Assembly: GCF_003253745.1 (NCBI RefSeq)
Contig: NZ_MZXV01000013.1
Span: 372,001-436,000 of the forward strand
Origin: Mesorhizobium kowhaii
Lineage (GTDB): Bacteria; Pseudomonadota; Alphaproteobacteria; Rhizobiales; Rhizobiaceae
Direction: 5' to 3'
DNA length: 64,000 bases
In this document: positions 53,063 to 59,645 of the stretch, in pieces
Layout: each line of letters begins with the position of its first letter
How positions within the stretch are numbered: the first letter of the stretch is position 1
Position numbers and translations under genes: made by a program
The notes under the pieces: generated by a model
What the model was told of the DNA's origin: nothing
The model's database searches: none
The model's input: the letters and a program-made list of their open reading frames with translations, nothing else

Positions 53063-53857
53063 TTACGCCGAGCTGTTTTTGGCGACTTTGCCCAGTTCCT
53101 GCTCCAGATCCACCAGCTCCTTGCCGCCCGCCATCAGATTGAGCAACTGATCGCGATCAATTTCGCTTTTCGCATAGGTGCCGGTGCATCTGCCGCGCTT
53201 CAACAAGGTAAAGCGGTCGCCGACCACATAAGCGTGATGAACGTTGTGGGAAATGAAGATGACGCCGATGCCGCGCGCCTTGGACTGGACGATGAGCTTT
53301 AGAACCACGGATGCCTGATGGACCCCCAGCGCCGATGTCGGCTCATCCAGGATCAGCACTTTGGCGCCGAAATAAACGGCGCGGGCGATGGCCAGGCACT
53401 GCCGTTCCCCGCCCGAAAGCGTGCCGACAGGCTGTTCGGGATCGCGCAGCTGGATGCCCATCGCTGCCAATTCGTCATACGCGGTGCGGTTGGCGAACTC
53501 GGCGTCAAACTGGCTGATCGGGCCGAACTTGCGCATCGGCTCGCGCCCAAGAAAGAAGTTTCGCGCTACGCTCATCAGCGGCACCAAAGCCAGGTCCTGG
53601 TAGACCGTTGCGATGCCGCTGTTGCGCGTATCGGCCGGCGACGCAAACCTTGTCGGCTTGCCCTGTACGCGGATTTCACCCTCGTCGGGCGCGTAGACGC
53701 CGGACAGCGTCTTGATCAGCGTCGACTTGCCGGCGCCATTGTCGCCGAGCAGGCAATGGACCTCGCCGGGACATACGTCGAACGACACATCCTTGAGTGC
53801 AACGACCGATCCGAAATACTTGCTGACCGACTTCAGTTCGACATAGGGCTCGGCCAT
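53063..53857 (-). CDS. Sugar ABC transporter ATP-binding protein (FrcA-type, single ATPase domain)
   Basis: 264-residue ATPase energising the importer encoded upstream. Walker A is GDNGAGKST (about residues 39-47), signature LSGGERQ (about 147-153), Walker B VLILDEPT (about 168-175) and H-loop ISHN. It has a single nucleotide-binding domain, as in S. meliloti FrcA, not the fused tandem form of RbsA. Its ATG overlaps the permease stop (TGATG). Last gene of the moc-like operon. Confidence 0.92.
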   Translation of the reverse strand: MAEPYVELKSVSKYFGSVVALKDVSFDVCPGEVHCLLGDNGAGKSTLIKTLSGVYAPDEGEIRVQGKPTRFASPADTRNSGIATVYQDLALVPLMSVARNFFLGREPMRKFGPISQFDAEFANRTAYDELAAMGIQLRDPEQPVGTLSGGERQCLAIARAVYFGAKVLILDEPTSALGVHQASVVLKLIVQSKARGIGVIFISHNVHHAYVVGDRFTLLKRGRCTGTYAKSEIDRDQLLNLMAGGKELVDLEQELGKVAKNSSA

Positions 53858-54954
53858 CACCGGCTCCTCATGGCGCGGTTGCGCACATAGCTGTTGAACA
53901 GCACCGCGATGACCATCATGGCGCCCATGAACAGCTTGAACCAGTCCGTGTCGATGCCGGTGTAGAAAATGCCCATTTGCACCACGCCGAAGATCAATGC
54001 GCCGAACATGGCGCCGATGGCCGATCCGTAGCCGCCGGTGAGCAGCGTGCCGCCGATGACGACGGCAATGATGGCCTCGAACTCCTTCTGGGTGCCGCGC
54101 AGCGTGTCGGCCGATCCCGTGACCAGGACCTGGATCGCCGCAAAGAGCGCAGCCGCCATGGCGGTCATGACGAACAGCGTGATCTTGGTGCGCGCTACCG
54201 GCACACCGAGATTGCGCGCGGCATTGGCTTCACCACCCGCAGCGAAGATCCAATTGCCGAAGCGGCTGCGCGTCAGCAACCAGGTACAGACCAATGTCAA
54301 TACGATCCACCAGACGATCGATACCGGAATGCCGGAGATCGACGGGAGGCCGTCCGCCCGCTTGCCGACGAGGCCGATGTCCGAAAGCCACGCGATTAGG
54401 CCGGAAAAGACCTGCCCCGAAAACAGGCTGTTGAGAGGATCGTGCAACGCCAGTTCATGCACGCCGGACACCTGGGTTCGCCCGGATATGCCGCGCGTGA
54501 GACCGAGCGTCAGGCCGCGCAGCATGAACAGGCTTCCGAGCGTCACGATGAAGGACGGCAGTCCGGTCCTGACGACGGCGAGCCCGTTGAGCGCGCCGAT
54601 ACCGCCGCAAACAGCGAAGGAAAACAGCAGCGAAAGCCAGATAGGCCAGCCCCAGAACACGGAGGGGATGGCGATCAGGATTCCGGCAAAGCCAATCATC
54701 GAGCCAACCGACAGGTCGAACTCGCCCGCGATCATCAAGAGGGCCACGGGTGCGGCGAGAATGCCAAGTTGGGCCGAGACCTCGAGGAAATTGATGATCC
54801 CCTTGGCACTGAAAAGTCCCGTATTTCCCGCCGTGATGGCGAAGAACACAAAGACCAGAACGGTCCCTGCCGCCGCACCAAGTTCCGGCCTGCTTAACAG
54901 GCGGCTCAGGCGGGAGACGGACCGGACCCGCTCGTCGCGAATCTCTGCAGCCAT
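53857..54954 (-). CDS. Sugar ABC transporter permease (RbsC/FrcC family)
   Basis: 365-residue inner-membrane permease. About 25 residues of cytoplasmic start, then helices beginning at GAAAGTVLVFVFFAI. Family marks: EFDLSVGSMIGFAGILIAI (about residues 77-95), RTGLPSFIVTLGSLFMLRGLTLG, and the C-terminal FGALIFGVVQMGIFYTGIDTDWFKLFMGAMMVIAV. The start ATG 54954 (MAAEIRDERV) is chosen by domain limits and AAGG upstream. It lies 55 bases after the binding-protein gene and overlaps the ATPase start by one base. Confidence 0.92.
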   Translation of the reverse strand: MAAEIRDERVRSVSRLSRLLSRPELGAAAGTVLVFVFFAITAGNTGLFSAKGIINFLEVSAQLGILAAPVALLMIAGEFDLSVGSMIGFAGILIAIPSVFWGWPIWLSLLFSFAVCGGIGALNGLAVVRTGLPSFIVTLGSLFMLRGLTLGLTRGISGRTQVSGVHELALHDPLNSLFSGQVFSGLIAWLSDIGLVGKRADGLPSISGIPVSIVWWIVLTLVCTWLLTRSRFGNWIFAAGGEANAARNLGVPVARTKITLFVMTAMAAALFAAIQVLVTGSADTLRGTQKEFEAIIAVVIGGTLLTGGYGSAIGAMFGALIFGVVQMGIFYTGIDTDWFKLFMGAMMVIAVLFNSYVRNRAMRSR

Positions 54955-55009
54955 GGATGCGTTACCTTCATCAGTGAAAGCGGCCGGGCCGAGGCCCGGC
55001 CGCGAGCGG

Positions 55010-58095: not shown

Positions 58096-58193
58096 CGGTC
58101 AGCCCCATCTGAGCCCGAACGCATTTTCCTTGAGCCTAGGACTGCTTTGGTTCCATTGTTAGAACCAGATTGCATTGATTTTTCGGAACCACG
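58096..58193. promoter_or_regulatory. Divergent moc-like promoter with repeated GGTTCC/GGAACC
   Basis: The 98-base gap holds GGTTCC (58149-58154), AGAACC (58161-58166) and GGAACC (58185-58190, ending four bases before the regulator's start). The first two form an inverted repeat; the second and third form a direct repeat at 24 bases. Two or three related half-sites between divergent MocR and target genes is the usual arrangement for this family. Confidence 0.5.
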
Positions 58194-59645
58194 ATGAAGA
58201 CCAGTTTTCCAATCGACGGCATCGCACTGGATCGCGACAGTTCCGCCAACCTGCACCGGCAGCTCTATGTCCAGTTGCGTGATCTGATCGAGCGGCGCGT
58301 GCTGCCGAGCGGCCACGCGCTGCCCTCGACACGGGTCATGGCGCGGGATCTGCATGTGGGCCGCAACACGGTGATTGCCGCTTGCGACCAGCTGGCGCTG
58401 GAGGGTTATCTGGCCATACGGCCACGCAGGCCCTCGGTGGTCATGGATCTGCCCACCCGTTCGACCACGGCGGAGCATGTATCGCCCGAGGGCGAGAATC
58501 CAATATCATTGCGCGGGCAGACCATGCTCGCCCAACCCTATCATCACGGCAGACCTGGCATGCTCGCATTTCATCCCGGCATGCCGGACCCGGATAATTT
58601 CCCGTTCAACACCTGGTCGAAACTGCTCAGCCGCCGGACAAAATTTGCGCATATCGATCTTTTCGGGACCTATCACGTCAAAGGCTATCCGCCCCTTTGC
58701 GAGGCTATAGCTCGATATCTCACCGCGTCGCGGGGCGTTAAGTGCAACGCCGAGCAGATCGTCGTGACCAATGGTGCCCAGTCGGCGTTCGACCTTCTGG
58801 CTCGGCTGCTCATCGATGAAGGCGACACGGTATGGATGGAGGAGCCAGGATATTACGGGGCCGGTTCGGCTTTCGTCTCGGCTGGGGCGAAACTGGCGCC
58901 GCTGCGCGTGGGCAATGCAGGCTGGAACCTCGATCCACCGCCTGTCATTCCGCGAATGATTTTCGTGACGCCCTCCTGCCATCACCCACTCGGCGTAACC
59001 ATGCCGATGGAACAGCGGCTCAATCTCCTGCACATGGCCGAGACCTGGCGCTCATGGATCATCGAGGATGACTACGATGGCGAATACCGTTTTCAAGGGC
59101 AGCCGATACCGGCGCTGCAGGGCATCGGCGCGTCAAACCGGGTGGTCTATGTCGGTACCTTCGCGAAGATCCTGTTTCCGGCCATGCGCCTCGGCTTTCT
59201 GGTGGTGCCCAAGGCAATAGACCATACAATTGTCTCGGCGCTGAGCGTGACCGGCCAGTTCGCCCCATTGCTCACCCAGGCTGCGCTGGCGGACTTCATG
59301 AACGAGGGGCACTTTACCCGCCATCTCAGGCGCATGCGGCGTCTCTATGCGGAAAGGCGGCAGTTCTTCCTGGAGAGCTCTCAAAGGCATCTCGGAGAAT
59401 GGCTGGATTTCCATGCCACCGAATCGGGCATCCAGGTTGTCGGCATTTTCCGCGAGACATCTAACGACGCGGCGATTGCCGAGGCGTTGCTCCAACAGGG
59501 GATCAACGTCTCGGCCTTATCGATCCAGTACCGTCACGGCACAAAACAGAACGGTCTTGTCATGGGCTTTGCGGCTGCCGATGCGCAGACCACCGAAAAG
59601 ACGATGCAGAAATTTCGGGCCTTGCTGAAAGCCCATTTCGGGTAA
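58194..59645 (+). CDS. MocR-type GntR/aminotransferase-fold transcriptional regulator
   Basis: 483-residue regulator. N-terminal GntR winged helix (about residues 20-85): LHRQLYVQLRDLIERRVLPSGHALPSTRVMARDLHVGRNTVIAACDQL. The large C-terminal domain has the fold-type I aminotransferase layout: VVTNGAQSAFDLLARLLIDEGD, IIEDDYDGEYR and the PLP-lysine motif VVYVGTFAKILFPAMRLGFLVVP. MocR proteins use PLP to sense amino compounds (GabR: GABA). Divergent from the moc-like operon, which it probably controls. An amine sensor fits an aminated inositol as signal. Confidence 0.92.
   Translation: MKTSFPIDGIALDRDSSANLHRQLYVQLRDLIERRVLPSGHALPSTRVMARDLHVGRNTVIAACDQLALEGYLAIRPRRPSVVMDLPTRSTTAEHVSPEGENPISLRGQTMLAQPYHHGRPGMLAFHPGMPDPDNFPFNTWSKLLSRRTKFAHIDLFGTYHVKGYPPLCEAIARYLTASRGVKCNAEQIVVTNGAQSAFDLLARLLIDEGDTVWMEEPGYYGAGSAFVSAGAKLAPLRVGNAGWNLDPPPVIPRMIFVTPSCHHPLGVTMPMEQRLNLLHMAETWRSWIIEDDYDGEYRFQGQPIPALQGIGASNRVVYVGTFAKILFPAMRLGFLVVPKAIDHTIVSALSVTGQFAPLLTQAALADFMNEGHFTRHLRRMRRLYAERRQFFLESSQRHLGEWLDFHATESGIQVVGIFRETSNDAAIAEALLQQGINVSALSIQYRHGTKQNGLVMGFAAADAQTTEKTMQKFRALLKAHFG

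Follow-up and report, generated by a model that had tools for sequence, protein, structure and literature searches.

What might a gene cluster degrade when it carries a rhizopine-type (MocR) regulator and an importer of its own, and when its dehydrogenase and binding protein are not those of the known rhizopine catabolism (moc) loci? The question is raised by six genes of Mesorhizobium kowhaii that lie in a 64-kb stretch (positions 372001-436000 of contig NZ_MZXV01000013.1, C1 below; "the window" means this whole stretch) of an 8.06-Mb draft genome (86 contigs) in which NodA is also encoded (280.7 bits, cut-off 22). The cluster is probably an inosamine catabolic operon under the control of MocR, with its own ATP-binding cassette (ABC) importer and a dehydrogenase other than MocA. 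The orthology of its regulator to MocR and of its IolE-like protein to MocC, which follows from their identities to moc loci and from a tree, and a tandem moc-box between the divergent genes, argue for this reading. The features are these:

58194-59645, plus strand: mocR-type regulator (GntR DNA-binding and aminotransferase domains, 483 residues); NF052281, 48.6% identity to S. meliloti MocR, TFAK motif
58161-58195, minus strand: putative tandem moc-box by motif match, ATCGTGGTTCC at 58195-58185, a 13-bp spacer, and AATCTGGTTCT at 58171-58161
56977-58095, minus strand: DH1, dehydrogenase of the Gfo/Idh/MocA superfamily, 372 residues
56081-56980, minus strand: MocC, by identity, tree, and residues D71 and D105; IolE-family TIM barrel, 299 residues, start codon GTG
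55010-55966, minus strand: CUT2 periplasmic binding protein, 318 residues, not MocB
53857-54954, minus strand: RbsC-type permease, 365 residues; PF02653, 158.6 bits (a mechanical open reading frame list puts its start further upstream)
53063-53857, minus strand: FrcA-type ATPase, single-domain, 264 residues; PF00005, 113.7 bits

A first-pass annotation of this DNA had named six genes, with the MocR-type gene divergent from the rest, and all are present on the strands that it gave. Its central claim, a moc-type locus with an importer of its own next to a MocR regulator, holds as well: the MocR is genuine, and the importer genes stand in the same run. From 58095 to 53063, the minus-strand order is dehydrogenase, MocC, binding protein, permease, and ATPase, and 98 bp separate the dehydrogenase gene from mocR. 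Because the five genes are tightly packed, we infer that they are co-transcribed as one operon. The junctions had been described as ATGA or TGATG overlaps; read directly, TGATG is correct for permease and ATPase, but the overlap of the dehydrogenase and IolE-like genes is GTGA, and the other two junctions are gaps of 114 bp (before the binding protein gene) and 55 bp (before the permease gene). A scan for sigma-70 promoters and terminators was uninformative (one promoter-like site, shuffled mean 1.9; six terminator-like sites, mean 6.0).

The regulator scores 748.8 bits on the NCBIfam model NF052281 (rhizopine_MocR; cut-off 650), close to the 756.5 bits of S. meliloti MocR, and it is 56% identical to MocR of the Roseateles sp. 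XES5 plasmid, the second of the two MocR proteins compared. It keeps the TFAK motif with lysine K325; the lysine of such motifs binds pyridoxal phosphate (PLP) in this fold. Judged by these comparisons, it is a MocR orthologue. In rhizopine-inducible promoters, the 11-bp sequence AAAGYGGYTCT occurs twice as a direct repeat, the copies lying 13 bp apart (PMC10107442). In the window, a pair matches two such repeats at 17 of 22 positions, a score equaled by none of 300 Markov-resampled sequences and by a single one of 200 plain shuffles, and its first box overlaps the start codon of mocR. The site thus has the tandem moc-box operator pattern and is a putative MocR site. A search of the whole genome with the moc-box core pattern returned a single match, this site; the uniqueness carries little weight because the backward control gave four.

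The same pattern recurs near other mocR genes. In a first scan of 45 MocR loci, from which L089, L093, L094, and L098 were removed as duplicates of L039, L033, L025, and L029, a moc-box of at least 15/22 at spacing 13 is present in 36 of the remaining 41 (S. meliloti 19/22, R. leguminosarum 18/22), and for any of those 36, no more than 14 of its 300 resampled sequences reach the locus score. When spacings of 5-21 were tested, 13 was best or tied best in 27 of the 41 loci, with the window among the remaining 14. Seven MocR loci fetched later contributed four more at or above 15/22 (17 in L118 and L121, 15 in L119 and L124; 13 in L120, and 11 in L122, which is at a contig edge, and in L123). Since many of the loci are closely related to one another, these numbers do not represent independent cases.

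The IolE-like protein is 65-69% identical to MocC of four reference moc loci, those of S. meliloti RCAM1115, R. leguminosarum RCAM2802, Phyllobacterium zundukense, and the Roseateles sp. XES5 plasmid (NZ_CP084754.1). The first-pass annotation had proposed a tree as a check, and the maximum-likelihood tree (55 of 62 rows kept after removal of near-copies above 97%) places it in a 43-row group that holds MocC of all four loci and is split with support of 100/99 from 12 IolE rows, six of which adjoin iolC or iolD genes; the program flags long branches in the IolE part. Two differences, S71D and E105D, separate the groups, each fixed in 43 of 43 MocC and 12 of 12 IolE rows. By its sequence, then, the window protein is a MocC orthologue and not IolE proper. 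D71 could be an extra carboxylate that meets an ammonium, if TIM-barrel logic is right to place it in the active site.

The dehydrogenase and the binding protein are a different matter. The locus had been said to have exactly the mocA, mocB, mocC, and mocR set; this stands for MocC and MocR, which are orthologous, but not for the other two. DH1 matches S. meliloti MocA at 28.6% over 133 of its 372 residues, in the N-terminal part, the remainder being different, and matches to the four MocA proteins span only 81-145 residues. On the IolG model, it scores 101.2 bits (cut-off 355). Its identification as MocA or as IolG was rejected on this partial match and on an IolG score far under the cut-off. 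At the Asp and Arg positions of IolG, which we take to be catalytic, DH1 has Asn217 and His220 in an alignment of low confidence there. Its nearest homologues are from Mesorhizobium. The binding protein is 25.3% identical to S. meliloti MocB over 154 residues. It passes the NCBIfam model named "rhizopine SBP" (432.9 bits, cut-off 420), on which S. meliloti MocB scores just 45.4 bits, so the model describes a protein other than MocB. The low identity and the different behavior on this model led us to reject MocB as its identity. In a fold comparison, the model of the binding protein is nearest to 4ru1, a protein that PMC10747050 calls a verified myo-inositol transporter; the fold tables for DH1 and the binding protein hold mostly Gfo-superfamily and sugar-binding proteins, and they exclude no other family. 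The permease and the ATPase are 64 and 61% identical to their counterparts in the Roseateles plasmid moc locus.

Does this combination of genes occur elsewhere? Recurrence in other genomes had been named as a check at the first pass, and the gene set recurs. A scan of genome contigs with DH1 returned 34 loci, of which 33 were kept at 55-94% DH1 identity (L046, matching at 25% over 128 residues, was excluded). Of the 33, 32 have the importer trio (the exception, L027, is truncated by a contig end), 30 have MocR (contig ends truncate L026 and L042, and L043 has none), 31 have MocC at 60% identity or more, and none has MocA. Additions include a second Gfo dehydrogenase, at least 70% identical, in 10 loci, a YdjC-type deacetylase in nine, and a DegT aminotransferase in three; in one, L041 from Frigidibacter, mocD and mocE lie directly downstream of the DH1 gene run. 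Separately, in the Mesorhizobium carmichaelinearum locus (L016:9001-10119), the DH1 frame is split in two and the rest of the gene run is open. In a survey of 397 genomes of the order, the binding protein exceeds its cut-off in 15, DH1 (E<=1e-60) is present in 11, and both occur in 10; G135, with a 43% DH1, is excluded from these ten DH1 genomes. No best place of DH1 reached 60% identity in 693 plasmid records, and a search of the 397 genomes with S. meliloti MocA came back empty without a positive control and is uninformative. Judging from gene content, DH1 and its binding protein mark a second, importer-equipped type of moc locus. In the titles and opening lines of abstracts of the papers listed, we found no published description of this operon type or of a deacetylase in moc loci, which is not proof of none in print.

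The survey also bears on how the amino group might be removed. MocR exceeds its cut-off in 17 of the 397 genomes, at 19 places; in the stretches fetched around them, 13 have MocC, five have a DegT aminotransferase without MocC, one lies at the edge of a contig, and in no case are both present. From this distribution, MocC and the DegT aminotransferase look like two interchangeable routes for removal of the amino group. The best match of the aminotransferase in the Protein Data Bank is KdnA, followed by further DegT enzymes that include inosose-type ones. It has no match of 60% or more in 975 plasmid records, and its best match in the M. kowhaii genome is 40% over about half of its length. L088, L097, L119, L123, and L124 are MocR loci with a DegT/DnrJ aminotransferase and no MocC; the moc-box pair scores 18/22 in L097, and L123 has none.

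How might such an operon work? The evidence favors an amino group on the substrate, and scyllo-inosamine, to which PMC6668481 describes a MocR regulator as responsive, is most likely the compound sensed. MocR likely detects the amine with its PLP, and the tandem moc-box at the start of mocR is likely where it switches the operon. The importer likely takes up, presumably inward, scyllo-inosamine or a close aminocyclitol as its ligand. DH1 likely oxidizes a ring carbon, presumably either adjacent to the C-NH2 carbon or one carbon further, and elimination by MocC likely frees the nitrogen. With the ketone adjacent to C-NH2, MocC would take out water and the resulting enamine would hydrolyze; with the ketone one carbon further away, the group eliminated by MocC would be ammonia itself. 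Either route would presumably lead to the trihydroxycyclohexane-dione that is also the IolE product and is opened by IolD. Since both routes end at the IolD substrate, no aminotransferase or iolBCD would be needed in the operon. PMC5789663 states that rhizopine use in R. leguminosarum additionally requires IolD and IolA.

A more general proposal concerns MocC itself, whose function is unknown according to PMC10107442, yet mocC is essential there for catabolism of scyllo-inosamine and 3-O-methyl-scyllo-inosamine. It is conceivable, and we offer it tentatively, that within the IolE family MocC forms a branch of deaminating enzymes. Paired with DH1 or MocA, it would convert an inosamine by oxidation and then elimination to the IolD substrate and ammonia; Ser71Asp and Glu105Asp would be the switch from inosose dehydratase to inosamine lyase, and MocR loci without MocC would arrive at the same point via the DegT aminotransferase. 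The mechanism would explain why a second IolE-family enzyme exists beside IolE and why an acidic residue replaces Ser71.

Several observations weigh against an inosamine operon of this kind. With its cut-off of 290 bits, the NCBIfam IolE model accepts S. meliloti MocC at 395 bits as well as the window protein at 373 bits, and the model name "rhizopine SBP" is an annotation. Two of the 33 DH1 loci depart from the set, L042 with a 47% IolE-like protein in place of MocC and L043 with none; among the ten DH1 survey genomes, L096 lacks MocC and MocR, and L090 lacks MocR beside DH1. The alternation of MocC and aminotransferase is imperfect: three of the five aminotransferase-type genomes (G087, G261, and G015) carry MocC elsewhere, and in two loci of the genome collection (L032 and L038) the two stand together. 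The moc-box falls under 15/22 in five of 41 loci (L032, L044, L086, L088, and L092; L086 reaches 16 with a wider stretch) and in three of the seven later ones. In the window itself, spacing 12 scores 18, higher than the 17 of spacing 13, apparently because of a third half-box downstream, recognized by eye. Work by Galbraith from 1998 is said to have found idhA necessary for rhizopine use in S. meliloti, and a pure DH1-MocC route would not need idhA. We found no ligand, enzyme, or growth data on any member of the operon type.

The alternatives turn largely on what the rest of the genome holds. The first-pass annotation had reported neither demethylase genes nor iolBCD. For the window this is correct, as tblastn (E<=1e-4) finds no IolB, IolC, IolD, MocD, MocE, MocF, deacetylase, or DegT aminotransferase in its 64 kb, but the genome has mocDEF and iolCDEB on another contig, C12. 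There are two MocD homologues in the genome (76 and 70%) and a third at 30%. In the C12 cluster (L116, C12:643001-662900, at 7962-16177), mocDEF (MocD 76%, MocE 82%, and MocF 60%) are accompanied by a LacI-type gene in divergent orientation and by genes for an importer and IolG (425 bits, cut-off 355); the binding protein encoded there is MocB-like, with 65% identity to S. meliloti MocB and 71% to a paralogue from R. leguminosarum. About 7 kb past IolG begin iolC, iolD, iolE, and iolB, all above their NCBIfam cut-offs. By its gene content, this cluster is a second cyclitol locus, possibly for an O-methyl-inositol pathway; a similar arrangement, mocDEF next to a LacI-type gene, has already been published for the chromosome of M. 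loti MAFF303099 (PMC3538637). The best match in the C12 mocD promoter reaches 11/22, which is no moc-box, whereas the S. meliloti mocD promoter has two perfect boxes (22/22); the demethylase therefore appears uncoupled from the window MocR.

Elsewhere in the genome, positions 9661-11916 of L117 (C1:1050001-1069900) contain another mocDE pair (70 and 78%) and, with it, a PanB-like gene. In L106 (C1:38001-57900), a cluster at 5466-11844 includes a MocE-family ferredoxin (180.4 bits, cut-off 136.15), fatty-acid-hydroxylase-like, hydroxypyruvate-isomerase-like, and PanB-like proteins, and a CUT2 importer. A PanB-like gene is likewise found after mocF in L009 and L010, and after mocDE in L117. Next to the operon in the window, a gene for an MFS transporter (59656-60858, minus strand) is convergent with mocR, its best NCBIfam hits being carboxylate transporter models below cut-off; an Lrp-type regulator (61099-61593, minus strand) and an AzlCD-like pair (61597-62759, plus strand) were recognized by eye.

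These homologues undercut the earlier argument that a missing demethylase means an unmethylated substrate, which survives in the weaker form that the C12 mocD lacks a moc-box. They also open another possibility, that the operon serves 3-O-methyl-scyllo-inosamine, with MocDEF from C12 removing the methyl group and the window operon handling the amine. The C12 genes themselves speak for this, as does the distribution of MocD, a homologue of which (E<=1e-140) is present in eight of the ten DH1 genomes versus 49 of 397 overall (Fisher p ~1e-6, kinship not corrected), and in L041 mocDE lie within the gene run. We nevertheless consider it unlikely. The C12 mocD adjoins a divergent LacI-type gene and has the box-less promoter described above, and its mocDEF may serve O-methyl-inositols such as pinitol or ononitol; moreover, MocD and DH1 do not appear to be inherited together, because among nine genomes of the genus, our own included, seven have a MocD homologue and two have DH1.

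A different substrate is somewhat less likely still, namely another aminocyclitol or an N-acylated inosamine (for example antibiotic-derived streptamine or N-acetyl-inosamine) that deacetylase-bearing relatives would deacetylate before oxidation. It would fit the YdjC-type deacetylase of nine DH1 loci and of the R. leguminosarum, Phyllobacterium, and Roseateles plasmid moc loci, but the window has no deacetylase, a search of the whole genome was also empty (run without a positive control), and loci with mocA and mocDEF have the gene too, so it does not mark a different substrate. Finally, the operon could serve an amine-free cyclitol or sugar, such as scyllo-inositol or an anhydro-sugar, with MocR, MocC, and the moc-box as inherited decoration. 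The fold tables for DH1 and the binding protein would allow this, but it seems improbable given the TFAK lysine kept in MocR, the replacement of MocC by an aminotransferase at five of 19 MocR places, and the placement of the IolE-like protein among the MocC rows, which differ from IolE by fixed residues. An inosamine operon under MocR thus seems the most probable of these explanations.

The deacetylase in loci with mocA and mocC was located at L009:15160-16039 (S. meliloti RCAM1115), L010:14866-15759, L012:15736-16665, and L011:9909-10796. It matches in two frames in the S. meliloti record and in one open frame in the other three, and the split frame may be why descriptions of moc omit it.

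An operon type with a different dehydrogenase and an importer in one run makes rhizopine chemistry directly testable, with two residues to mutate. It may also be of practical use. In published biosensors, MocB is combined with IntBC, an inositol importer from a different strain that harms the cell when overexpressed (PMC10107442). MocR, the operator pattern, and the predicted cognate inosamine importer would together be a natural replacement candidate for plant-to-bacterium signaling tools.

How, then, does the operon stand among known systems? It is not a canonical mocCABRDEF, as it has neither MocA nor MocB, and no mocDEF under a moc-box. With the mocCABRDEF of S. meliloti and R. leguminosarum it shares the MocR and MocC orthologues and, between mocR and the genes that diverge from it, a tandem moc-box in the same register; it differs in its dehydrogenase, its binding protein, the importer genes in the same run, and the placement of mocDEF on another contig without a moc-box. 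Its mocC overlaps the dehydrogenase gene, whereas the known mocC has a separate promoter (PMC10107442). It very likely works like mocCABRDEF all the same. The Roseateles sp. XES5 plasmid locus shares MocR (56%), MocC (69%), permease (64%), ATPase (61%), and a 47% identical binding protein, but has MocA, IolG, and a deacetylase, with no DH1 in the stretch. The myo-inositol iol pathway uses the same enzyme superfamilies in its first two steps and has its iolC, iolD, iolE, and iolB on C12 of the same genome; the window MocC, with D71 and D105, falls outside the IolE rows, and DH1, at 101.2 bits against a cut-off of 355, falls outside IolG. In the myo-inositol-binding protein Acei_1806 of Acidothermus (4ru1), finally, Q-A aligns to the H166-E167 that is invariant in the family of the window binding protein.

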